Origin: Cyanodermella asteris
Taxonomy: Eukaryota > Ascomycota > Lecanoromycetes > Ostropales > Stictidaceae
Reading direction: 5' to 3'
NCBI GenBank assembly: GCA_900618795.1
Contig: UYJD01000009.1
Coordinates: forward strand, 62,001 to 126,000
Length of the DNA stretch: 64,000 nt
The notes below the pieces were generated by a model. It was not told where the DNA came from. It ran no database searches and was given only the letters and a program-made list of their open reading frames with translations. Positions 9,041 to 61,690 of the stretch are shown piece by piece. The stretch's first letter is position 1. Every line of letters begins with the position of its first letter. The position numbers and the translations under genes are program-made.

Positions 9041-10801
9041 ATGGGAGGAGAAACACAGGAGCCTTTCACGCCGGCTTTGGATGATGTGATCCGGAAGTTG
9101 ATGGAGGAGTGGCACGTTCCTGGCCTGAGCATAGCAATTACAGATCATGGGCGGATCTCGACAAAGGTGTGATACTTCTGCACTTGAAACTGTTCGAACT
9201 CGCACAGATCCGCTACATGTCTCCAAATGCGTCAAGATGCGTTACTATCTACTCGGGGCAGGTTCCGTCCGCAGCCCATTTGATCGTTGACTTTCGACAC
9301 CAACGCTTCCTTTCGAAAAGCTGATTTCGCTCCAGGGATACGGCTACGCCGATCTCAAGACAAAGACGCCGGCCGAGCCAGAGACTCTCTTCTACGTGGC
9401 CAGCATCACCAAGCACATGCTATCAGCGGCATTCGTCCACCATCTCGATTCAGCAGAGAACAAGGCAGGCCCGAAGGTCAGCCTACAAACGCCACTCGCC
9501 GAGATCATTCGAGACGATTTTGTCCTCGATACACCGCACACGACCGCGACGACCACGATTGAAGATGTCTTGTGCCACCGCTCTGGTCTCCCTAGGTTCG
9601 ATACAACATATGGTGGTCCGCTTGATTCTCCTCGCAAGATTGTCCGCCATCTTCGGCATCTTGCATTGTCGGCTCCCCCAAGGACCACGTTTCAGTATTG
9701 CAATGTTGGGTTTGTGACGGCGACATATGCGTTGGAGACTCTGACGGAACACCCTTCTCGCAGTACATGTGCGAAACGATATTCGAACCGTTGGGGATGA
9801 AGAACACTTTCTGCACATTGAATGACGCCAGAAATTCAAGTAGCGGGAAACACCAGCTGGCGACACCATATGGGTGGGAGACCGACAAACTTGTACAACG
9901 ACAACATCTAGACGGTCCAGAGGTAGTCGGCGCTGGTGCTCTTATCAGCAATGTCGGAGATTGGGCGAGATGGCTGAACGCGCTCTTGCAGAATAAAGGC
10001 CCTGTCTCGGCGAGCACCTTCCGGGAAATCGCCCGTCCTCGTATTGTCTCATCTCAGCTACCGGAACTGTGGGACAACGTCTCCCTGTATTGTCTAGGGC
10101 TCGAACGCTGCAACTATCGTGGGGTAGAGATATTCTCCCACACAGGCGGGCACTGGGGGTTTACGGGCAACATGGTTTTGGTACCATCACTACAATGGGG
10201 AGCCATCGTGTTCTGTAACTCAGAGAGCTCTGGGGGCAATTGTGTCATCGGCTTGGGATACCACCTCGTCGACGACTTGTTACGTATTCCTGAGAAGGAA
10301 CGCGTAGACGCCGGACGTTTCATGCGCGAGCGGGACCAAATGTTCGAGAAAAGATTTGCTGAGGCGAGATCCCGGATATACCCCTCGATACCGGAGCCCC
10401 CGCTGCCTGCAGCGTACCCTTTGGCCGCTTATGCTGGAACGTACTACAATCCAGCTTTCCGCAGTTTTACTTTCGTAGCTCACGATTCCAAAGGAAAGAA
10501 CAAGGACGGGAGCGGGACCGATAGCGAGATGATCTTGTTCTGTCGTCCAAAGGATCGTTTCTGGCCGATGACATTGACTTTGGAACACATGTCGGGAGCG
10601 TATTGGTTTGGCCAGAGTATGTCATTGCTGCGGTTTGGTTTCAAAGCGGAATTCAAGCTGGATGCATCAGGCCTGGTGACTCAGCTGGGTATGGCGTTAG
10701 ATGAAAGTGATGAGACGAAGCTGTGGTGGTTTGACAGGGTGGATGAGGTAGAGCATAAAGATCTCGTGTGTGAAACATCCTCTGAGGTCGTTGTTGGATG
10801 A
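9041..10801 (+). CDS. Beta-lactamase-like (class C/PBP fold) serine hydrolase with one apparent frameshift
   Basis: Exon 1 (9041-9166) ends ...GRISTK; a 169-nt intron (9167-9335, donor GTGTGA, acceptor CCAG) joins it in frame to GYGYADLKTKTPAEP, the usual start of this fold. The active-site motifs of the serine beta-lactamase/transpeptidase family are present: SxxK as SITK, YxN as YCN, and the third box as HTGG in the FSHTGGHWGFTGN segment. A C-terminal extension with a lipocalin-like look follows. The protein homology runs from frame 3 into frame 2 near 9744-9749: ...ALETLT continues as GTPFSQYM only if one base is added. No consensus intron resolves this without deleting conserved sequence. 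It may be a recent lesion or a sequencing error. The substrate is unknown; many fungal members are uncharacterised esterases. The gene converges on DPH6, 139 bp away. Confidence 0.75.
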
Positions 10802-47689: not shown

Positions 47690-48562
47690 CGAGTTACACA
47701 TCTGACTGGGTTGCTATGTCTCGGCGCCGAGTCCGCCTCCAGGCTGTGTCTGCCTCCAGGCTGTGTCTGCCTCCAGGCTGTGTCTTGTCGTCCCAATCAT
47801 CAGCGGCTCCTGCAACAAAGCACGCCGCCATAAAGTCGTCATCTGAGCCATGGGCATTGCGGTAGTCGGGATGCTTCATTGACCTTGTGACCGCTCTACG
47901 GAGAGCATGGCCACGATCTTGGGTAAAGCAGTCCTCGGTACTCTGTCGAAACTCAAGGAAAGGCTTCTCTGGCGGTACGATCTGCGCGAAATTGTCCCCA
48001 TGTTTGATCATAGGTGACCACATGTTTCAATATAAGTTGTCTACCGCACCACTAGTATCGGTTAGAAGATAGCACTCGTTCCTCAGCGGCCGAAGAGCAG
48101 CTCCAATCCTGGTACAAAACTGTGGATCAAAGCGGGTGTTCATGCTGACAACGGTGGTCGAAGGACACTGTTCCGGCAACATGCGGATGAGAATGAGACA
48201 GGCATCATGGATCCAATCAAATTCCTCGTCCGGGCTCGCCTCGAAGCCCCCGGCTGGTAAATAATTCTGCGTCGTGTCGACATGGACAGATCAGGCTCGA
48301 ATTCGTATTTGACGTATTTCGAAGGATGTACGTAGGCAACCGGAGACTTTGTCGGCTTTGGATTGGCGCTGATATGAACCGAATCGCCAGGTGCATCCCA
48401 GTGAGCGCCCATCATCGTGACACCTTTGATGCCGTATGCGAGAGCTTCACCGCCGCATTTCTACCATTGTACGGCGCTCTCGGATTCTTCGCCGAGCATC
48501 ATTGTCGGGCCATGGCTGAAGAAATGCACTGATAGACGCCATATTGAAAGATGGCGTATTTC
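47690..48562 (-). pseudogene. Broken LigB-type extradiol ring-cleavage dioxygenase (DODA-like)
   Basis: Three minus-strand pieces in more than one frame align in order with fungal LigB-family extradiol dioxygenases, which open catechol-type rings using Fe(II). First, HFFSHGPTMMLGEESESAVQW at about 48455-48520 (described in parts), followed by a stop and then ALAYGIKGVTMMGAHWDAP with the conserved GAHW histidine and SPVAYVHPSKYVKYEFEPD. Second, after a frame change, EEFDWIHDACLILIRMLP and STTVVSMNTRFDP. Third, after another stop near 48029, DNFAQIVPPEKPFLEFRQS, RRAVTRSMKHPDYRNAHGS and DDFMAACFVAGAA. I see at least two in-frame stops and one frameshift, so it is non-functional. Three 17-bp tandem copies sit near its 3' end. 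It lies divergent from the transcription factor at 48925. Confidence 0.78.
47735..47785. repeat. 17-bp tandem repeat, three copies
   Basis: Three perfect consecutive copies of the unit GCCTCCAGGCTGTGTCT lie at 47735-47751, 47752-47768 and 47769-47785. They fall at the 3' end of the dioxygenase pseudogene. It looks like a small minisatellite created by local duplication. Confidence 0.9.
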
Positions 48563-48924
48563 AGCATATTGCCAGAATCCAGCGTATATCGGACTAACTC
48601 GATCACACTTTTGACATGTTTATCGAGACAAGGCGTGTCCTCGCACCAACATGATTTCACTCACCCGCGACGCCTCATGAGCAACCTCGGATTTCGACCC
48701 ATGGCACGTCGGAAAGTGGGGAGGCAAAGCTCTATCCCGGTGTGGTCTAGCGGGAGGCGGAGGCATGGAGACGCACGGCATCAACGGGAACAAAGGCCCA
48801 TCACCGAAACCCACAAGGATCCCGTTCCCCATGCAATCCGATCGACCGACACTTGCAATTTCTCCTCCACAGCACGCCGACGTATCTTCAGCGACGCCGG
48901 TTCGCTCCTCCACATCGTGTCGCG
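48563..48924. promoter_or_regulatory. Divergent region dioxygenase pseudogene / transcription factor
   Basis: About 360 bp separate the 5' end of the dioxygenase pseudogene (minus) from the start of the transcription-factor gene (plus). Historically this would have been a shared promoter, as is common between a cluster regulator and an enzyme gene. No binding site is claimed. Confidence 0.4.
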
Positions 48925-51900
48925 ATGAACCACGACGCCCACCGCCTCGAGCAGCCTGCCAGGGCTCCGAAAGTCCTGGGCAAGCGAGACAGGACGCTGT
49001 CAACGGGCGCCGGTGGCGGTGACGGAGCTTCGCCGGGCGAGAAGACGCCGACAAAATACTTCCGCTGTGCTGACTGCGATAAGAGCTATTCGCGCGTGGA
49101 TCATTTGGCGAGGCATGTGAGACAACATACGCAGGTAAGCCGATGGTGTTTTAATTAGCCGCGATCCAGGTCTGAAAGAACAGCTTCCTTGCCTGCTGTT
49201 TGCGCAAGGATTTAAGGCGTTCATTCGAAGGTTCAAACTCTTTGGTCTCGACGGATCATAGCCTTGCCATTCTCAATTCGTGTCCCAGATTTACATGTGG
49301 AGATGCAATGCCCAATCCTTGTTGCGGCTTTTATGCATGCGTGCGCAATATCTTTTTTATTTCATTCTAAGATCGACCACAGACCCGAATCCATCCTATG
49401 TGATTTGACAAACTAATGGTGACTTCCGTAGGAACGCCCGTACATCTGTGGCGAATGCCATAAGGGTTTTGCCAGAGCCGATCTGCTGAAACGCCATGCG
49501 TCTGTACACAGTAGTACTGACGGTACAGGTTCCGCCAGAAAACCAAATCGTCAAGGTCGGGTCAATCAAGCCTGCCTGGCTTGTGCTGAGCTGCATCTGA
49601 AATGCGACAACGAGAAGCCGTGTCAAAGATGCAAAGCCAAGAGCATCTATTGCCAATACCAGTCTCGGCAAGCAGACGACGAAGCAGTCGCACATGATCT
49701 TCTCAGTTTGTCACAGCAGCAAGTACAGACACCAGAATACTCTCGAACAGAAACCACCATACCGCATCACATCCAACAAGGAGTTCGATTTACGCAGGAC
49801 ATGGGCCACACTGAGAGCTCGTCGTCGAATCCTTATCCTCAGCCTTCTTCTGCTCCTGTGTTTGAGACTCACGTGTCGTCTAACTCCGCTGACTTGCAAC
49901 ATGGATATTCAGCACTCAAGCCCGATTTCGAAGGGAGCGAGCTGCGGGACTTCTTGCAAAATGTCATGGGTCAGCAACCTGCTGCAGGCGGAACTGGGGC
50001 ACAATCTGGTACTTGGACACCAAGACATCTGTTTGAGCTCGGCTTCAACAGCGACCTCGAATTGAATGAAGTTGATAAAGATCTCTTGGCGGACTACAGT
50101 CTCAACAATCCCTTTGGTGTGTCGCCTGATACCTCGAGCACTGGTACGAGTGGAGATGCCAGCTCCGAGCCTCCTATGAGCGGAATAGAACCAATGCAAA
50201 AAGCGTCCACATGGCGTTTTAGGCCAGTCTCCAGAGATAATAGGGACAACAACATATCCTTACCTTCTGGGTCAACAAGACGGCTTGTTATCGCTCGAAG
50301 AGTCACGAAAGAACCACTATCTTACGCAACTAGAGATCGCATCTTGGGATTGGTGGCTGCAGTGAGGTACCAGCCCCTACAGCCGACTTCATCTTCTGCC
50401 TTACCGTCCGTCGAACTTTTGGACAGTCTGCTACAATTCTATCTTGCCTCAGTTCCTATATCTGAACAGTTTCTACATACGTCGACGTACGATCCGAGTA
50501 AGGCGCGTCCGGAAATAACCACAGCTCTGCTTGCTGCAGGTGCAATATTGACGCCAGACGAGCATTTACGCAAGCTAGGCTTTGCTCTACAGGAAGCGGT
50601 GCGTGGTGCCATCGCACTATCACTGGAGACAGACAATACCCTCATTCGGAATCTTGATATCGTACAGTCTTCCCTGTTCGTCCTGAGCCTGGGTCTCTGG
50701 AGCGGCAACAGTCGCAAGATGGAGATCGCGGAGAGTTTTGGGCAGGTCTTTATCACAATGATGCGCAGAGGCGGCTGGTTCCGTTCCTGCGAACAAAATC
50801 TGCCCGAGTCGCATGATCAGGGATCCGTTCTCGAGGCCAAATGGCGCAAGTGGGCGGAACAAGAAAGCAAAAAGAGGTCGGTGGCATGTTTTCGGCATCC
50901 CTTTGGCGACGTACTGACCCGTCTCTAGGCTAGTATTTGCCTTTTACAAGCACGATACCGCTGCATCGATAACACAGTCCATCAACCCCGTCATTTCGTA
51001 TGCTGATCTGCACCTACCGCTGCCATATCCACAGGATCTTTGGCTCGCTGGCTCCGCTCAGGCATGGAAAGATTTATATCTGTCAAAGTACCACTCTCTA
51101 CAGACACAACCCCCTTCGGTGGTCGATCTTCTCCGCAGAATCGACCAGTTCGAAGGTGCTCAGAGCATTACTGATGATCGCATCGCAGTCCGTGCTCTGA
51201 TGTGTTCCTCATGGGGCATGGTTCGTGAGTACAGACAGCAAAGCGCCATCGTTCAAGGGATGCAAAGTCACTGGAGCGGCGGACCACTTCTATTGACTTC
51301 TCGCTTGGCGGAAATCAGATCACTACTTGAGTATCTTCGCATGAGCGGCCCCGCAACCGCCGATGCAGCTCTGTTCCTCGAGATTCAAAGCATGCACTTG
51401 TATATCAGTCTGGAGGATGTCCACGTGTTTGCTGGAATCGAAGGCCAAGACGAGGCGCGCAAAGCATATCCGTCACTCCTTGAGTGGGCAAAGACCCCAG
51501 CAGCGCGGCAGGCCGTGCATCACGCAGGTCAAATCATACGGTGTGCAGCTCAGATACCCTTCATCCGGAACTTCGAGGCCGTTGCGGTGTATCAAGCGGG
51601 CTTGACGCTATGGGCTTATGGCGTCATTTCCAATGCCATCATATGCCGTGGTCTCGATCCGAGCTCCGCAATGAGGCCAAACGAGGATTTCGTTGCAATT
51701 AATGATCTCGATGGCCAAGCGACACAACGATTCTTGACACTGAATAAAGGTACTCCCGGCCTTGTTCAGGGTAGCAACGGCGGGAACGACCGTGTACTGT
51801 TGACTAATCCTGGAGCCGTGATGCTACATCTGATAGATTTGCTGCGAACAAGTCACCGCTCAACCAATTCGGTGCCTCCACTAGTCGAAAATCTTACCGA

Positions 51901-51967
51901 TCTCATGAACAGCCTGGGGTCTGCAGTCAGGACACTGGACAACGTGCATGCCAAATTTCCAGGATAA
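48925..51967 (+). CDS. Transcription factor with two C2H2 fingers plus Zn2Cys6 cluster and fungal TF domain
   Basis: Three exons, 48925-49134, 49432-50876 and 50929-51967, give 897 residues. Intron 1 is long for this genome (297 nt, GTAAGC...CGTAG) and splits the two fingers; intron 2 is 52 nt. C2H2 finger 1 spans about 48-68 (FRCADCDKSYSRVDHLARH) and finger 2 about 76-96 (CGECHKGFARADLLKRH). The Zn2Cys6 cluster has cysteines at 118, 121, 128, 134, 137 and 144 in the canonical spacing C-x2-C-x6-C-x5-C-x2-C-x6-C. A disordered middle and a helical fungal-specific regulatory domain (from about residue 330: RILGLVAAVRYQP, DSLLQFYLASVPISEQFLH) follow. Combined C2H2/Zn2Cys6 regulators are known in filamentous ascomycetes, often near metabolic clusters. 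The frame is intact across all exons. Target genes are unknown; neighbours are decayed enzymes. Confidence 0.9.
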
Positions 51968-53531
51968 ATGGCTCCAGACATCGCCATGATTTCTTTGGCA
52001 CTTTTGCACAGTGCTCCGCGCTCATGAGGGCCAATCCCACCAGTTATTTCTAATATTCACTTGGACACGCAGAGCTTACGTCGATAGCGCCGCCAGCTAC
52101 AATCAGCTAGGACTACTACGGGCGCTCTCTGGTGCTGCGATAGTGATGAGTCTATCATTGCTCTTTACGAACTCTAGCCCCCAACCAGTCGCTACTCGCT
52201 CAACCCTCTGAGCTGCTCAAACATTGCCAACACTATTTATATGCTCTACGTTTGCCTCAAGGACGTTGAGTGTAGGCGTTCCTGGAAGGTATTCCACGAT
52301 GTGATGAAGTATGGGTTTAAAAACCAGTCATGGCGTTGAATTTCACAGCGGATTATTTCGCGATCTTGACCTTTTCTCCAGGGCCATTGTGGATCTTAGC
52401 AGTATGTGAAGCTTGAAGCTATTCCACTGTCCCATTCTTTGTGGTTCCCTGCGAATTTTGTCTGGCATATCGTTCGAAAACGGCATACTCGGCATCCGCC
52501 TTTCGAGGCTCACCCTCCGTCAGTGGACGCTGGCGTTTCTTCACTGTCCCCAAGATGCCGTCGCTATACGCAGACGCTTCCCAAATAGCCCAGCAGGTAC
52601 GGCCGTCAGCGCGAAAAGGCCTATTTCGACGTTTGCTACATCGGCCTTGGGGTCCTGATGGGATCTTGTTGCTTTTTGCGGGCGCTTGTATCGACCCTCG
52701 GGCTTTGATGTGCATGGATCTGCCGAGCGTGGCAAGGTCGTTCAAGGTTAGTTTTGAGAGAACTGCTTTTGGTAGCTCGAGTATGTTCAAGTCAGACCAA
52801 ATATCTGAGAGGAATATCACCACGTTGCCGATTCGAGTGACGCACTGCGGCGTCCCGTTGCCTCCGCAGAGCAGTGCGATGCCGAAAGCAATGTTTTCAA
52901 TTCCGAAACGGCGAGCAAATTCCGGACCATTGTCTGGCGTTTTGTACTTGAAGGAGCCGGTCAGATCGGTCGTAATGGCTTAAGATACGCAGCTGATCAG
53001 AGTTGTTTAGTAAATCTGCTTCCGGACTCGACAATCACGACCGCTCAACTGCTACCATGGGACCGGCAGACGCGATTTACAAGGACAGGCCCCGAGCCCG
53101 GTTTGATCATTCTACTCCAGTGACGATTATGCCGCAACGATAGGCCGAACAGAATACATGCCGCAAGCCGAAGCCATGCTTCCGGACAAGTCCACCAAGT
53201 CAATAGCTTCGCAAGTACATAAATAGCGCACGCGATGAACCGTGGAGACTCTGCCTGGTGGCTCACTCAACCCCAGCTTTGCTTGAATAATCACGAGAGG
53301 CCTTTGGCTCAATCGATCAGTGTGAAATCGACGTGGTTACTAATGGGAATCGTTCAGGGGGTGCTGTCCTAGTTCCTCCACATTCCGATGCACCAAATAG
53401 TGGTCCCGAGCCTGGATCGAGGGTGGCGAAAAGCCTATCGAGTATTGCAGAAACCTAACCAGCGACAGCTCGGTAAAAGGTAAGTGCTCGCAGTCATTTG
53501 AGTGTAATGTCAAACTTTCCACACGCTGCTA
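51968..53531. other. Decayed or intergenic region after the transcription factor
   Basis: About 1.56 kb with no intact gene. The left third holds the TF 3' region. The segment 52419-52983 contains a possible minus-strand gene remnant, listed separately. The right part, 53000-53531, shows nothing recognisable and would contain the promoter of the FAD monooxygenase relic. Confidence 0.4.
52419..52983 (-). pseudogene. Possible membrane-protein remnant (weakly DUF4267-like)
   Basis: A minus-strand frame is open from just after a TAA near 52985 to 52419. Its first 60 codons look protein-like (GSFKYKTPDNGPEFARRFGI, then ENIAFGIALLCGGNG and RIGNVVIFLSDIWSDL), recalling small fungal proteins with an R-x-x-G-I-R/E-N-hydrophobic pattern such as DUF4267. 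The rest of the frame is compositionally random, and no start codon precedes the good part. I treat it as a likely fragment. The family link is weak, and a chance frame is a real alternative. Confidence 0.3.
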
Positions 53532-54816
53532 TGGATCGATCCTTGAAAGTGGTCATTGTCGGGGCCGGCATTGGAGGCCTGATCGTCGGGCTCGCATTAC
53601 GACAACAAGGCATCACATAACAGTCCTTGAGTCTTCAATATTCAGGAACGAGATGGGAGCTGCGATGCCTATTGCACCGAATACTAATGGCCTACTACGA
53701 CGAATGGGCGTTGACATCGAAGACGTCGGGGCGAACGAATGTCGAGGTCTGCACATCTTCGAGCCCACGGGCGATCAGATCATGAGCCACGACCTGACCG
53801 GCGAGAACAAGAAATGGCAGCACCCGTGGCATTCGATCCATCGCGGTCATCTTCGTCTCGCGATGTGGGCGAAGACAATTTCGAGCAACGGCGAAGGCGG
53901 GGCCTGTGAGCTCAGGCTTTCGAGTCGGGTGAAGTCTGTCAATGTGCACAAGGCAGAAGTCAGTCTTGATAACGAGGAAGTCGTGTTGGGAGACCAGAAA
54001 CTCGGGCTGATGGCATTCGCTCACGCTGTCGCGAAGCGTTGGACTTGGAAACAGTACCGAAACCCTTCGACTGTGGCCATAGTGCCTCTCGCTTTTCAAT
54101 CCGCAAGCAGACCTTTGGATGACCCGGCGACCCGTGAAATTGTCAGCGCAGCAGGCACCTTGCATATGGCAATTGCCAACGACCGGAGGCCGGTGTATTA
54201 CCCATGCGTGAATAACACGATACAGAACAGTCTTTTAATCCACCACCCAAGCGAAGAAATACGTGGTGACAACGCGGCCTGGAACCAGAGAGGCGAAAAA
54301 GCATGAATACTCGAAGTTGGCAAGAACTTCGGCCCAAGCTTCAGAGCATCTCTTGAGAAGGCCTCGGAAGACACGTTGAGGGTCTGGACTTTGCTGGATC
54401 TCGAAGTTTTGCCAAAATGGGTGCATGGCAGACTTGCCTTGCTGGGGCGATGCAGCTCACCCTCTCTTTCCACATCAAGCACAAGGAGGTGCGCAGGCCA
54501 TCGAAGACGCCATATCTATCGCAGCTGTTCTCCCACTGGGCACGCAGATCGAAGAGATCGAGGAAAGGCACCAGCTCATACCAACAATGTCGCAAAGCCC
54601 GCGCTGATCACATACAAGCATTCACGCGCCTTTCTGGAAAGCCTTTTCAAGAGCAGCAGAAAGCCGGGTCAAATACGAGTCCATGAGATTAGATCAATCC
54701 AACTTCTCGCATGACGAGTGGAACTATTCAAGTCATAAGCTGGAACAGTTTCTCAGGTTGAAAGACAAGTGGCGATGGCAGCAGCCACTCTCCTTTGGTC
54801 CGTCCTCTGGGCCATG
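53532..54816 (+). pseudogene. Broken FAD-dependent aromatic monooxygenase (salicylate-hydroxylase-like)
   Basis: It begins MDRSLKVVIVGAGIGGLIVG, the GxGxxG dinucleotide-binding fold of class A flavin monooxygenases, and is thrown out of frame near 53615. The next frame continues ITVLESSIFRNEMGAAMPIA and GLLRRMGVDIEDVG, HPWHSIHRGHLRLAMW (R-x-x-L substrate/FAD helix), down to a TGA at 54304. The second FAD motif, GDAAHPLFPHQAQGGAQAIE, appears in another frame near 54440. A C-terminal tail (SNFSHDEWNYSS...FLRLKDKWRWQQPLSFGP) appears in a further frame and ends at 54816. At least two frameshifts and one stop are visible, and parts of the middle domain are missing. The intact family hydroxylates aromatic rings with NAD(P)H and oxygen. 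This copy cannot be functional. Confidence 0.75.
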
Positions 54817-54929
54817 ACAGCCACGGAATCAACTTCAAGGCGTGCTTCCTGTTGCCGGCCAGTACCAGATCATACACTTAATCCGTTCTCGTACATCGGG
54901 AACTTGTCTTCGAAGGCTTTTTCCGAACG

Positions 54930-55245
54930 ACGGGTTCTCATTGAGGTTGCCCGGCCCTGTCGTACAAGCATCGCTTACCTGCTGCTCGCTGGATAGCATG
55001 ACCCGGCTAGGAGGCGGAGGGTATGAGCATTGCGGTCTGTATGTACATGGTGTCCGGTACACCAAGAGAACGGGAAAACGCCGAACGGGACTTTTATGTC
55101 GGTGCTTTTCTCGAATCTCCCAGACCCCATTGTTACGGGTCGAGAATATATCGCAGTACCAGAATGGGGATGTGACATCACCATTTCAGACAATGGCGAG
55201 CAAAAAGCGAAGACCGTCAGTCCCAGCTACCAAGACTACTAGGCT
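54930..55245 (+). pseudogene. Remnant of acetoacetate-decarboxylase-like protein
   Basis: Two adjacent frames together resemble the core of fungal acetoacetate-decarboxylase-superfamily proteins. The first has ASLTCCSLDSMTRLGGGGYE and HCGLYVHGVRYTKRTG. The second, shifted, has GTFMSVLFSNLPDPIVTGRE followed by YIAVPEWGCDI, where the family usually has a GRExxGxPK-type motif. The catalytic-lysine position of classical enzymes cannot be confirmed. The frame change and the loss of both ends make it a relic. The family call rests on motif resemblance only. Confidence 0.5.
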
Positions 55246-55361
55246 ATCGTACTGTCCTTTGGGGACACTGGAAAGCCTCTCTTTTCTCCAGTTCACCACA
55301 GCCCCGTTCCAGGCAAGAGACGGAGACTACAGGAAACTTTGTCGCTCATTTAAACTTGTCC

Positions 55362-55781
55362 ATGACTCCAGACCCGGCCGGCCCGACGCGCTCCGACATT
55401 TACCTGTTCCTCACATTTAAATATATCTTGCCCAGCGGCAAGAAGGCCTTCTATACGGGAACGGCAGACGATCCCGTGCCACTAACGAAAGGGTGGCAAA
55501 CACAGTCTCTCCACAATGTGAATGCCGAACACCACAAAGCATCGCGAGTGGCCCCGCGGCGGGACTATTTCAGTGCCGATGACCTATCAGTCATTCCTGG
55601 AGAGGTCTGTCCTGTGGACATCGAAGTCTGGCCGACCGACGTCGATGTTGAGAAAGGTGGACGGCTCGTTTTCGAGATCGCAAGTGGTGACACCCAGGGC
55701 AGCGGAATCTTCCTTCATAACGACCCAGTGGACAGATCAGAAGAAATGCTCAGAATTATGAACCACATACATTTCAGGTAG
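55362..55781 (+). pseudogene. C-terminal domain fragment of CocE/NonD (X-Pro dipeptidyl-peptidase-like) hydrolase
   Basis: An open frame of about 140 codons matches the jelly-roll C-terminal domain of CocE/NonD-type serine hydrolases: LTFKYILPSGKKAFYTGTAD, KGWQTQSLHNVNAEH, IPGEVCPVDIEVWPTDVDVE, KGGRLVFEIASGDTQGS and IFLHNDPVDRSEE, ending NHIHF. The alpha/beta-hydrolase domain with its catalytic Ser-Asp-His triad is absent upstream, where the acetoacetate-decarboxylase-like relic lies, and the extreme C-terminus is cut off by a stop after HF. It is therefore a truncated fossil of a host enzyme. It ends 80 bp before the stop of the phosphoesterase on the opposite strand. Confidence 0.65.
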
Positions 55782-55860
55782 AAGCTTATTAACCATATTA
55801 TGCAACCGGTAAATCCGCTGAAGGCTAAGCAATGACCTGATACCTTTTTGGACGGACATT

Positions 55861-57246: not shown

Positions 57247-60177
57247 TCATCCACGCGAAATAAATATTGGGACATCGCTGAGGTCAATACCAAAGCCTCT
57301 GGCCAAATCTCCTCGGCCTCCTTTCCTACTGGCAGAAACGTCACCCGATCCACGAGTACCAGCGCTTCCCCCGATACCTTTACCAGGCTCATAGCCAAAA
57401 GCTAGTCCTCCACCGTAGCGCGCGCTGGTTGGATGGTTATCGTGCTTCAAGGACATCAGAGCACTGTGATCAGCTTTCGGATGTCGACTACCATTTGCGA
57501 GGTCTAGCTGCTGCACTCGCTGTCGAACATCGACTGGGCTGCACAACTGAATGTGACCTCCATCAGTACGCGTCCTTCTGTGCCGTTGGCTGCGGTCGGT
57601 GATGCGCTGTTCGTGAGCTATCATCTCTGCGCTTGCCATCGACTCAAAATCTGGTCGTTGCTTGAGGGTCCCCCCAGCAGACTTACGGCGGTCAGCCCAC
57701 GCTTGTCGATACTTGGCCCAGTCCACTGGCCGCTCCTCACTCAAACTAGGCTCAGCTTGCGCGAACGTGGCTAATGTGGTCGTTGCAGGTCTCCTTTGCC
57801 ACTCGGGGCTGTGATGCTGATGGTCGGTCACCACTGATAATTGCTGGGGGCGAGTTCGTGACGCTCTTATTGTCTTAGTTTCTGGCGATGGCCTTTGGAC
57901 TGTCGAATAGGTACTTATTTCGTCGGTTGTATCCAAGGTCTCGGATTGAGTTGGCCTATGTCTCCTCTCGTCCTTAGGTGGTACTGGTGGCGGCGGATCC
58001 AGAGGGCTATGATCACGGAATCGTTGATGCGCTGAACTCGTTGCCAGCCGATGCTCAGACTCCGTAGTAGGGGCATTTCTGATCGGATTCAGCGGCGAAA
58101 CCAGTGAGCCGTCGTTGTAAGATCGGTATGTCCACCTTTCGGCGTTTCTCGCGGCCATACGAGGGGGAATGCTTGGGATTGCCACGGAGACATCTGGCTC
58201 GGAACATGTGGTAATCACTATTCTGTCGACTGGTGCTGGCATGGATTTTGCGCGGGGTGCTCGTTTCTGTAGTTTTTTGCCAGCGGGACTTCCCTGTCGC
58301 GCTGTTTCAGGTTGTGGCTGTGATTGTACAGGCGAAGCCGGTGTACCTGCAACGTTGCGGGAAGTCAACTGTGTCTCTGGCGAACATACAGCTGGTACCC
58401 TCCGTTTAGGTTGAGCGGTTTCCGAATGCAACGAAATACCTGTATCAACAGACTTGAATGCAGTACTTGGCTGAACAAGCCTTGGTATGTAATCAGGAGG
58501 CTGTTGGGGCTGCGCTCTAGGACCTGCCGGGCGTATCGACGCTTGGGAACTCATAGTACCACGAGACACTGAGCTGGCGGGGGAGATACCCTGACTTTGG
58601 CTTTGATAGCTCGTACCCGAGACATAACCGCTGTCAGTTGCTGACAAGGGCGGCCTCTCGAATGCAGGGCTTTGGGACTGATAAGTATGATCGCGGACCT
58701 CGTGTTCTCTCTGTGGTACGGGCGTGAACCGCGAAGCTGCAAGCATACTGTTGAGGATCTTTGACATCGCGACGCGAGTCATCTCTCGCGATTCCTCATC
58801 GTCCTCTCGAGACCGATCTTGTCGAGGATACATAACCTCGCACTGGGGACTGCCGACTCGCGAGTCTTCCTCAAAAAGCATGGCGTCTTCTTCGTTCATC
58901 CTAGTCGTCGGCTCTAGTGCGCTCTCTGGTCTGCTTGGGCCGTCCATCCCTTTGAGAAAGCTAGGTGGTGGCTCCGCAACATAGCCGTCAGGATCAGAGA
59001 GATATTGCAGGTGGCTATCAAAGTACCCGCTTGGCTGCACAGCTCCATGGTCGGGTTGAGAATATGCTGATGTGACAGTAGGCCAACGCCGTAGCTGAGA
59101 GGCCTGATGTTTGTTCGATCGTTGGCCGTCGACATATGTATCCAATTCGCCGACAGTGTCCTGGTCTTCGTCAAGCCACGGATTTCCTGCATCCCTCGCA
59201 TACGTGTCGACAACAAGAGCTGCAATGTCCGGAGAGTCCATGTCCATGTCCAACAACTGGCTTTCATGCACAGATATAGTCTGGGCATCGGACCACCCTC
59301 CATCCGATGCGGTTTCAAAGTACTCGAGGGTGGATGCTGTTGGTTGTGCGGGGCGCTTGGTGAGGCTGAGCATGGTTAAAGCTGGCGATACGGCACCACC
59401 ATTCGCAATACGCAATCCGCCGATACGTCCATAATCGAGGTCAGCAGGAGTGGTAGCTCGCGTAGTATCGAGAGAGTCTGGAAGATCGAGGCTCGCTATA
59501 CGTGCAAGCGGAGACATTGTCGACAAGTTCGGATTATAGTAACGACACTGCATGTCGACTTGGGCCTTTGCACTCGGCGGTTTGCGCAGGATATCGTTGC
59601 CGCGCGTGGCCAAACCCGGTGTGAGCAGAGACTTGCGCCGAATGGGCGCCATAGCTTCGTCTGGGTCTTCCGAGGCTGCCCTACACTTGTGGCTCTTCAT
59701 GGCAAGACGATCTTGCAATGCCTTTGCTTTGATCCATTCGTAGCCTTCTATAGCAAGCTCTGCTTCATCAGCGCCATTGAGAGCCTTGTCGTTGAAAGAT
59801 CGGTGGACGGTGATTCTCCTGGCAATCTTCGTGCCTCTTCTGTGCAGGCGACTACCCTTGTTCGTCTCAATCCCATCTCTTCTCTTTTCGTTTGTAACAG
59901 CTGCGAGGCCTTCTGGGCTGCAGAGAGCTTTCTGCGGGTCCGACATCTCACTCGTTGGGGAGGCGACGGCCACAAGGTCGGCACGCGAGCCATTAACGGA
60001 TCTGGTCAAAAGGCTTAGATCGCCGACTGATAAATTCGGCTTCAAAGCACCTTTGCCGGAACTGGTCGTGCGAGGCTTGGACAGTCGTCGCGGCCTTCTC
60101 TGTTCAACTCTCTCTACCTCTGTTGGGGGCACCCTCGGTGGTATCCTTTCATACGGCATCCCCCTCAGCCCTTCCAT
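57247..60177 (-). CDS. Large disordered fungal protein, 976 residues, uncharacterised
   Basis: A single-exon gene from ATG 60177. Almost the whole protein is low-complexity and rich in Ser, Pro, Arg, Gln and acidic residues. Short conserved-looking islands are seen: SKPRTTSSGKGALKPNLSV near the N-terminus, KIARRITVHRSFNDKALNGA with a following helix ELAIEGYEWIKAKALQDRLA, TDSGYVSGTSYQSQSQG in the middle, PVDWAKYRQAWADRRKSAGG, and a C-terminal block GLAFGYEPGKGIGGSAGTRG followed by LARGFGIDLSDVPIF. The C-terminal block near the end is the best candidate for a functional motif. No enzymatic domain is recognised. Such proteins in ascomycetes are often cell-cortex or signalling scaffolds, but that is not shown here. 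The length of the open frame with consistent codon use makes it certainly coding. Confidence 0.85.
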   Translation of the reverse strand: MEGLRGMPYERIPPRVPPTEVERVEQRRPRRLSKPRTTSSGKGALKPNLSVGDLSLLTRSVNGSRADLVAVASPTSEMSDPQKALCSPEGLAAVTNEKRRDGIETNKGSRLHRRGTKIARRITVHRSFNDKALNGADEAELAIEGYEWIKAKALQDRLAMKSHKCRAASEDPDEAMAPIRRKSLLTPGLATRGNDILRKPPSAKAQVDMQCRYYNPNLSTMSPLARIASLDLPDSLDTTRATTPADLDYGRIGGLRIANGGAVSPALTMLSLTKRPAQPTASTLEYFETASDGGWSDAQTISVHESQLLDMDMDSPDIAALVVDTYARDAGNPWLDEDQDTVGELDTYVDGQRSNKHQASQLRRWPTVTSAYSQPDHGAVQPSGYFDSHLQYLSDPDGYVAEPPPSFLKGMDGPSRPESALEPTTRMNEEDAMLFEEDSRVGSPQCEVMYPRQDRSREDDEESREMTRVAMSKILNSMLAASRFTPVPQREHEVRDHTYQSQSPAFERPPLSATDSGYVSGTSYQSQSQGISPASSVSRGTMSSQASIRPAGPRAQPQQPPDYIPRLVQPSTAFKSVDTGISLHSETAQPKRRVPAVCSPETQLTSRNVAGTPASPVQSQPQPETARQGSPAGKKLQKRAPRAKSMPAPVDRIVITTCSEPDVSVAIPSIPPRMAARNAERWTYRSYNDGSLVSPLNPIRNAPTTESEHRLATSSAHQRFRDHSPLDPPPPVPPKDERRHRPTQSETLDTTDEISTYSTVQRPSPETKTIRASRTRPQQLSVVTDHQHHSPEWQRRPATTTLATFAQAEPSLSEERPVDWAKYRQAWADRRKSAGGTLKQRPDFESMASAEMIAHEQRITDRSQRHRRTRTDGGHIQLCSPVDVRQRVQQLDLANGSRHPKADHSALMSLKHDNHPTSARYGGGLAFGYEPGKGIGGSAGTRGSGDVSASRKGGRGDLARGFGIDLSDVPIFISRG

Positions 60178-61690
60178 TATACTTCGTGCAGATAATTAGT
60201 TGGCCTTCAAGCGGTCTATCAACGCGATCCCTGGCTTTCTTCCGGGTCAATTCTTGAACAGCTCCTGTTGTCGCGGGGCGGCGTCCATGGCGGTACGATA
60301 TTGGGTTGGAAACGACCTCGCAGACCTTCCGCAGACAATGTGTGGGGACGAGAGGCGGGAGTGAAAGGTGGTATTCAGGATTGCATTGAAAGACTAAACG
60401 GCCAATATGTGAGTATAAAGCGTGGTATGGGCCACTGGTCACTGGTGAACAAGGCGAGCCTCAAGGTAACAGTACGGCGAATGGGCGGAATCTGATACAC
60501 TTGAGCGGGCGGCGAAGTTCGGTAGCATCAGCGTGTCAGATGCAGAAGAGATGGAGGAGACGACAAGATGGAAGTAACGCTAGGGAACATGATCCGCACG
60601 TGTCCGCATAATGATAGTGTCGCCCACGAGGAACTGGCGGCGACCAAGGACAACCAGCAGCAGGGAAGCGGTGGTTGGCGAAAGATGATGCACTCAATTC
60701 GTTCCCAGCCTTCCTTGTTTTGTCGAATCCTGCTTGCGGCGTCGTTGGCTGAGCGATCGCTACACAGCCACGATCTATGGCGGTGCGCAATAGTGTGGCG
60801 CAAGTGACCAAGTCCAATAGGAAGGCGCCACCAAGCCCGATTTAACGGCTCCGCTCGGGGCAACTTGACGACCTTTCCGCTTTTGGCGGAGTATCCTTTC
60901 ACCCGCTCACATCGCTCGAGGCATGTTTCTAAACATACTTCGGTACCCCTCTGTTTGTGTCTAATCCAGATGACTTTCATTGTGACTGTCTCAATTGGCG
61001 GCCTGATCGTCTCGCGCTCATTACGTTGAATGACGGTCCGAAGCGACTACTCTATTCACGTTTCCGTCACTGGTCCGTCTTACTAGATTGGGAATCTCTG
61101 CACGCTGTAGCAATACTAGCCGGGCCGTGCACGACCGTGCACAGGGTTTTACCGACTAACAATTCATGGAGACGTGAATACTTCTGTATCTGCAGGTGTC
61201 TGCATCCGTGAAATCAAAGGCCGGCCAGTCGCTTGTGCCGCCCGATGACAGCAACCGCGTATCGATGCGTCCAGGGTGAGCAGCAGAGATTGAGGCTGTT
61301 GCGGCAATTTTCTGCAGTCTAGAGGCGGATGGCGAGGTTTGCGCTGTATTTCTACAACAATACGCCCTGCGGTAGCTAGATATGAGAGCCGGTGCCAGTG
61401 CCCACTCAGTGAAAGAATGATATGTAGAACTACATTCAGACAGTGTTAAGTTGACGTTGGAAACCTTCTCTGTCCTCTTGCCGGGCCCTGACGTTGAGCC
61501 TTTCTTGTTACCTTACACTTACCCGCCGTCTGCCAGGTCTCAACTCCGATCTGGGAGTCACTGTAGCCGGACAAGCACTCGACTAGTCGCTTTAACATTG
61601 GAACATTTGAGTTCTTTCGATTTGCTCTGACAGGCCCATGCGCCGTCGGCTATTATGGTGATTTGAATACTGATTTGACCACCCCACTCC
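60178..61690. other. Divergent intergenic region before ATG10
   Basis: About 1.5 kb separate the disordered-protein gene (minus) from ATG10 (plus). Short open frames on both strands have no features. Both promoters should lie here. A short direct repeat of CCGTGCAC occurs near 61120-61145. Confidence 0.4.

Follow-up and report, generated by a model that had tools for sequence, protein, structure and literature searches.

Fungal degradative gene clusters are described with a scheme of 13 core genes, among them a salicylate hydroxylase and an aromatic ring-opening dioxygenase (Gluck-Thaler and Slot 2018, as cited in a passage of PMC10735191), and the gentisate cluster of Aspergillus fumigatus unites a salicylate hydroxylase, a dioxygenase, a fumarylpyruvate hydrolase and a zinc-cluster regulator in the section of PMC3914699 that presents it. 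Here we describe an 8.1-kb locus of the ascomycete Cyanodermella asteris, in which broken genes for enzymes of comparable classes surround an intact transcription factor with both C2H2 and Zn2Cys6 DNA-binding domains. It lies in a window of 64,000 nucleotides (positions 62001-126000 of contig C3, in a genome of 28.5 Mb and 25 contigs), and positions below are those of the window unless a contig is named. We propose, at a probability of roughly 0.6, that the locus is the remnant of a lost aromatic-acid degradation gene cluster of a known kind, beside a retained dual-specificity regulator.

Like the fungal degradative clusters, the locus holds enzyme classes of aromatic pathways within a few kilobases, with a zinc-finger regulator adjoining; unlike them, it has no unbroken enzyme, and two of its components, a monooxygenase dependent on flavin adenine dinucleotide (FAD) with a fused acetoacetate-decarboxylase-like (ADC) domain and a CocE-type hydrolase, lie outside the 13 core genes as that passage lists them. 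At least two neighbouring catabolic enzyme classes are present as relics (FAD-ADC, FAA_N, PepX_C and, weakly, a LigB-like dioxygenase), and all four are broken or truncated, as a first-pass annotation of the stretch had maintained for all but FAA_N; the locus can only be, at most, a former member of this class. With the A. fumigatus gentisate cluster, as far as the section cited above describes it, the locus shares the combination of a salicylate-hydroxylase-type FAD monooxygenase, a dioxygenase, a hydrolase and a zinc-cluster regulator. The A. fumigatus genes include, according to the same section, a cupin gentisate 1,2-dioxygenase and a stilbene dioxygenase, whereas the relic dioxygenase is LigB-like and the ADC and CocE components are additional. 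Within the genome itself, an intact homogentisate-type cluster (tyrosine degradation; G000:C6:2440000-2449999) contains HgmA, a cytochrome P450 and fumarylacetoacetase according to Pfam, and a probable zinc-cluster regulator recognized by eye. As at the locus, fumarylacetoacetase has a ring-cleaving dioxygenase and a probable zinc-cluster regulator in its vicinity; in contrast to the relics, this cluster is intact and its dioxygenase is of the HgmA type.

A probable fusion enzyme, broken and probably split

The FAD-ADC relic aligns with an intact paralogue of 708 amino acids (G000:C10:622459-624582), in which both domains lie in a single 799-codon frame (Pfam FAD_binding_3, 8.6e-23; ADC, 2.7e-13). 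Against this protein the relic gives four colinear tblastn pieces that run through several frames and stops (joint E-value in Table 1), one of which spans the junction of the two domains, and because of this colinearity and of the piece across the junction, the FAD and ADC relics, both correctly recognized in the first-pass annotation but counted there as two genes, most likely derive from one former fusion gene. The relic is colinear over the junction but broken, and the single reading frame is visible in the paralogue only. When the window was reversed, tblastn with the identical queries gave no match at E<=0.05.

The relic pieces stay below the Pfam thresholds (FAD_binding_3, E=0.0012 and 0.029; ADC, 0.19; the other pieces, none), with PF01494 scores of 18.6 and 14 against the 22 bits needed and no match for a piece of 301 amino acids; since no cut-off is reached, the identity of the relic rests on its alignment to relatives in the same genome. 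In a six-frame family search of that genome, whose counts here and below are lower bounds, the ADC model matches solely at the C10 paralogue, and FAD monooxygenases are not rare (five further matches). The first matches of the relic in the PDB are an FAD-binding protein (2.2e-4), decarboxylative vanillate 1-hydroxylase (9.4e-4) and 4-hydroxybenzoate decarboxylase (0.013), and the same three proteins are the top matches of the paralogue.

Within about 1.7 kb of the fusion relic we count 7-8 disabling changes. These comprise at least three frame changes (near 53.61, 54.45 and 55.07-55.09 kb), with a short excursion suggested near 54.58-54.64 kb, and three to four in-frame stops (near 54.30, 54.82 and 55.24 kb, and also at 54.61 kb if the excursion is rejected).

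Table 1. Features of the locus, given by window position and strand, with the evidence for each.
Feature	Positions	Strand	Evidence
LigB/DOPA-dioxygenase-like relic, in more than one frame	47697..48619	-	Weak; independent support for ~48033-48266 only
Intact dual-specificity transcription factor, 897 aa	48925..51967	+	Splice search; Pfam zf-C2H2, Zn_clus, Fungal_trans
C-terminal end of ADC domain, on the strand opposite to the rest of the fusion relic	52247..52315	-	tblastn and frameshift-tolerant comparison against shuffles
Fumarylacetoacetase N-terminal domain relic, profile positions 1-77 of 105	52677..52898	-	Pfam PF09298, E=1.5e-8, above gathering score
Relic of a probable single FAD-monooxygenase/ADC fusion gene	53543..55263	+	tblastn, joint E=9e-57; paralogue residues 8-583 of 708
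CocE/NonD-type hydrolase relic, C-terminal half	55314..55775	+	Pfam PF08530 PepX_C, E=1.6e-19, positions 89-208 of 217

The end of the ADC domain that is missing from the fusion relic turns up 3 kb upstream, in the reverse orientation. The segment listed in Table 1 reaches 29.3 bits in plain tblastn against a maximum of 28.5 in 200 shuffles, and a frameshift-tolerant comparison of paralogue residues 584-708 with 52.2-52.7 kb (-) scores 64, a value attained by none of 60 shuffles (best 41) and, in a repeat test, by none of 150 shuffles (best 44) and none of 177 other stretches (best 47). One of the 178 control stretches, starting at 51900, overlaps the site, also scores 64 and was left out of the 177. 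Directly downstream of the relic, at 55240-55800 (+), the same residues score under the shuffle mean and are equalled by 51 of 60 shuffles, so the ADC end does not lie there. Residues 440-583, in turn, reach 156 on the plus strand, a score that none of 60 shuffles attains, and at 52.2-53.4 kb (-) they do no better than chance, with 38 of 40 shuffles scoring as high; the same holds there for residues 1-380 (15 of 20). Within the stretches tested, each half of the gene is present once, on opposite strands.

Because the missing end lies 3 kb upstream on the other strand, the simplest account is probably that a single fusion gene was split by an inversion, one end of which would lie within the ADC coding region; that two separate relics have each lost what the other kept is less likely. 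The right end of such an inversion would fall at about 55.26-55.31 kb, where the CocE/NonD C-terminal half starts, and the left end at 52.3-52.7 kb. Repeats over 51.9-56.0 kb comprise three direct families and four inverted pairs, all of 14-19 nucleotides, and one inverted pair, 52671-52689 with 55190-55208 (79%), sits close to where the inversion would have ended and is short enough to have arisen by chance. The ADC-end piece of 36 amino acids has no Pfam ADC match; its one Pfam match, to DUF1411 (E=0.059), was taken as chance.

The long open frames around the intact C10 gene, judged by eye, do not have the look of a catabolic cluster. A scan of prokaryotes with the paralogue confirmed none of nine pattern matches, and we found no paper that names an FAD-ADC fusion in its title or at the start of its abstract, which is no proof that such a fusion is unpublished. 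The intact protein is a concrete enzyme whose chemistry is open to assay.

Hydrolase and dioxygenase relics

The fumarylacetoacetase relic, which the first-pass annotation had overlooked, makes the aromatic-degradation reading more coherent. The FAA_N model has two matches in the genome, the relic and one intact gene, which lies in the homogentisate-type cluster on C6 and to whose product the relic is 25% identical over 80 aligned columns (tblastn E=0.12); the NCBIfam model fum_ac_acetase gives E=0.0038, far under its cut-off. Of the N-terminal and catalytic domains of a fumarylacetoacetase, the relic retains the N-terminal part only, since PF01557 has no match in the window (elsewhere it matches twice on C6 and once on C15). 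The enclosing piece at 52422-52979 (-) finds only itself in its own genome at E<=1 and gives chance matches only in the PDB.

The CocE/NonD-type hydrolase named in the earlier annotation is also present, as the C-terminal half only, and is the sole PepX_C match of the genome. Its N-terminal hydrolase domain was not found beside it, PF02129 having no match in the window (elsewhere it matches at C4:188.7 kb and, sub-threshold, on C13), and comparison with the PDB yielded chance matches only.

The LigB-type dioxygenase fares less clearly: three comparisons give it weak, consistent support, and the corresponding Pfam match is absent. The central piece at ~48033-48266 (-) matches 4,5-DOPA dioxygenases in the PDB (E=0.019 and 0.069), the NCBIfam DOPA dioxygenase model (E=0.045) and the LigB exon found elsewhere on C3 (26.2 bits against 24.6 for the best of 200 shuffles), and the three agree on family and register; the outer pieces were placed by adjacency and order. 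One piece (48143-48460) shows a weak alignment (E=0.23) across the AHW motif of the LigB protein from C3 and has no match in the PDB; its only Pfam match, to DUF4505 (E=0.21), was taken as chance. On these alignments we accept a probable LigB resemblance and not membership of the family. At the far end of the relic, 47731-47785 holds 3.2 tandem copies of a 17-bp unit, with 97% matches.

If the components belonged together, the FAD monooxygenase, of the salicylate- or decarboxylative-hydroxylase type and fused to the ADC-like domain, would have hydroxylated an aromatic acid, the LigB-like extradiol dioxygenase would have opened the ring, and the FAA-type and CocE-type hydrolases would have processed the products. 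The main gain over the first-pass annotation is the re-drawn anatomy of the locus, with a probable fusion enzyme, its probable split by inversion and the added fumarylacetoacetase relic.

The retained regulator

Splice search and Pfam bear out the earlier description of a C2H2/Zn2Cys6 regulator with every exon intact. Its exons (48925-49134, 49432-50876 and 50929-51967, plus strand) encode 897 amino acids with no internal stop; an alternative open model with a different second intron encodes 899, and just these two models exceed 700. A C2H2 finger in exon 1 (5.6e-6), the zinc cluster (Zn_clus, 1.8e-6) and the fungal-specific domain (Fungal_trans, 1.1e-5) all pass their Pfam cut-offs, whereas a second finger, in exon 2, stays under it (5.2e-4; 20.8 vs 25.2 bits). 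The order is two C2H2 fingers, then the Zn2Cys6 cluster and Fungal_trans behind, so that both types of DNA-binding domain are N-terminal in one protein. Zn_clus and Fungal_trans, like the introns of so long a regulator gene, fit the fungal source and suggest a filamentous ascomycete. In searches of the same genome, exon 3 finds only itself and exon 2 matches six other places, with E-values of 1.2e-4 or weaker and no further than the level of the DNA-binding domains.

In the portions of Shelest 2017 (PMC5415576) that concern such proteins, dual-specificity regulators make up 1-4% of regulators, Cmr1p and Pig1p are given as the first C2H2 plus zinc-cluster regulators described, and a family from Aspergillus nidulans is treated. 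The regulator resembles Cmr1p and Pig1p in carrying C2H2 fingers and a zinc cluster near the N-terminus with the fungal-specific domain behind; the likeness observed is one of architecture, and, unlike the situation of those proteins, no melanin gene was found near it among the 18 of 22 long open reading frames of the window outside the locus that were scanned with Pfam.

Its retention can be put in numbers. At the rate of the fusion relic (8 lesions in 1720 nucleotides), about 12.5 lesions would be expected in the 2694 coding bases of the regulator, stop included, and none is observed; the probability of a lesion-free gene is 3.6e-6 at this rate and 0.0045 at its lower 95% bound. Because the gene is free of lesions despite their density next door, selection very probably acts on it to this day, or else was lifted much later than from the enzymes. 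Its targets are most likely genes elsewhere, the regulator having outlived the cluster or never depended on it. That it was once the pathway-specific activator and now acts in trans as a rewired orphan, for example on the C10 FAD-ADC gene, strikes us as an unlikely though specific version of this history.

If the regulator was indeed a member kept within a dead cluster, nature would have provided an example of a regulator that survived its own cluster, and the acquisition of new targets by a pathway-specific activator could be studied in it directly. We found no paper on relic clusters with an intact regulator, judging by titles and the starts of abstracts. Loss of a degradative cluster may also reflect a change of diet or host, and relics mark where this took place.

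One lost cluster or unrelated relics

What argues for one former cluster is the rarity of the relics' families. LigB has three matches in the genome (apparently two genes), ADC one, FAA_N one intact gene and PepX_C no intact gene, and a chance gathering of four such relics in 8 kb is therefore unlikely. Several observations weigh on the other side. The homologues in the same genome are scattered (LigB on C13 and at C3:538 kb, the ADC fusion on C10, FAA at C6:2446 kb), and no intact cluster of such composition was found in this genome. The FAD part is nearest to relatives on C9 (38% identity) and C6 (32%), ahead of the C10 fusion (25%), and in neither of these was an ADC domain detected. Proximity is what would assign the FAA and CocE relics, both fragmentary, to the cluster; the frame of the former continues as an open, protein-like stretch (52422-52676, minus strand) with no further Pfam family. 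The LigB-like piece lies under every curated cut-off, is missed by PF02900 (in four pieces and in the search of the genome) and finds only itself in that genome at E<=1. Finally, regulators with this architecture are widespread according to the same portions of PMC5415576, so the architecture alone does not tie the regulator to a cluster, and proximity is the sole tie by which it may once have belonged with the enzymes.

These points lend some weight to the explanation that ranks second, in which unrelated pseudogenes gathered by chance around an independent, conserved regulator and never formed one pathway: the intact homologues are dispersed over different contigs or separated by long distances, the FAA and CocE fragments are on different strands, and the regulator's architecture, on the partial evidence of PMC5415576, is not specific to clusters. 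We consider it unlikely, if the least so of the alternatives, given that LigB, ADC, FAA_N and PepX_C are not merely rare but fit one chemistry. The starts of the LigB-like relic and the regulator, moreover, would be divergent and about 0.3-0.4 kb apart if the weakly placed relic start is right, and a divergent gene pair is a common layout in clusters.

The first-pass annotation had left the choice between an aromatic catabolic and a secondary-metabolite pathway; the locus has the look of aromatic-acid degradation, and we regard a biosynthetic cluster as improbable. FAD monooxygenases of this superfamily do act in natural-product pathways, and the C10 paralogue matches CtdE (6.5e-32, rank 4) above salicylate hydroxylase 5evy (7.8e-30), with sorC, afoD and tropB lower. 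Its top three PDB matches, however, are, like those of the relic, the FAD-binding protein, the decarboxylative vanillate 1-hydroxylase and the 4-hydroxybenzoate decarboxylase named above, and a ring-cleaving dioxygenase together with a fumarylacetoacetase-type hydrolase indicates catabolism. Nor does the Pfam scan of 18 of the window's 22 long reading frames outside the locus reveal a polyketide synthase or nonribosomal peptide synthetase, the sole terpenoid gene among those scanned being SQS_PSY at 32.6-34.2 kb.

That sequencing or assembly errors broke intact genes is very improbable, since the regulator (2.69 kb of coding sequence) and the neighbouring PAN1 and metallophosphoesterase genes are open, and the 7-8 lesions, missing domains and strand switch are confined to the relics.

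Mode and age of decay

The earlier suggestion that retention of the regulator might mean recent decay is not favoured, because of the 7-8 lesions in about 1.7 kb, the split fusion gene and the truncation of both the FAA and CocE relics. In the history that we prefer, point and indel decay would have followed the inversion, without a part for repeat-induced point mutation. The latter was rejected as a cause, the dinucleotide indices of the four relic stretches resembling those of the window (TpA/ApT 0.49-0.62, window 0.58; CpA+TpG/ApC+GpT 1.12-1.36, window 1.31); their GC content is 0.508-0.529 (window 0.529). A recent duplication of an intact cluster was likewise rejected, as the relic DNA downstream of the regulator is single-copy: a DNA search with this part, 51968-55800, finds itself alone. 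Codon bias, tried as a means of dating, is too weak in this genome to tell coding from other frames.

Surroundings of the locus

About 110-118 kb separate the relics from the beginning of the 1.4-Mb contig C3. Neither of the terminal 2,000-base stretches of this contig contains telomere-type hexamers, which does not refute a subtelomeric position. The locus is flanked by PAN1, an EH-domain gene of two long open frames named from its Pfam EH and DUF1720 matches, and by the metallophosphoesterase gene, an open frame of 295 codons. Elsewhere in the window, a 982-codon open frame at 57247-60195 (-) has no Pfam match at E<=0.001, and the frame at 9626-10801 (+) matches PF00144 Beta-lactamase at positions 156-313 of 329 only, and may have further exons or be truncated.

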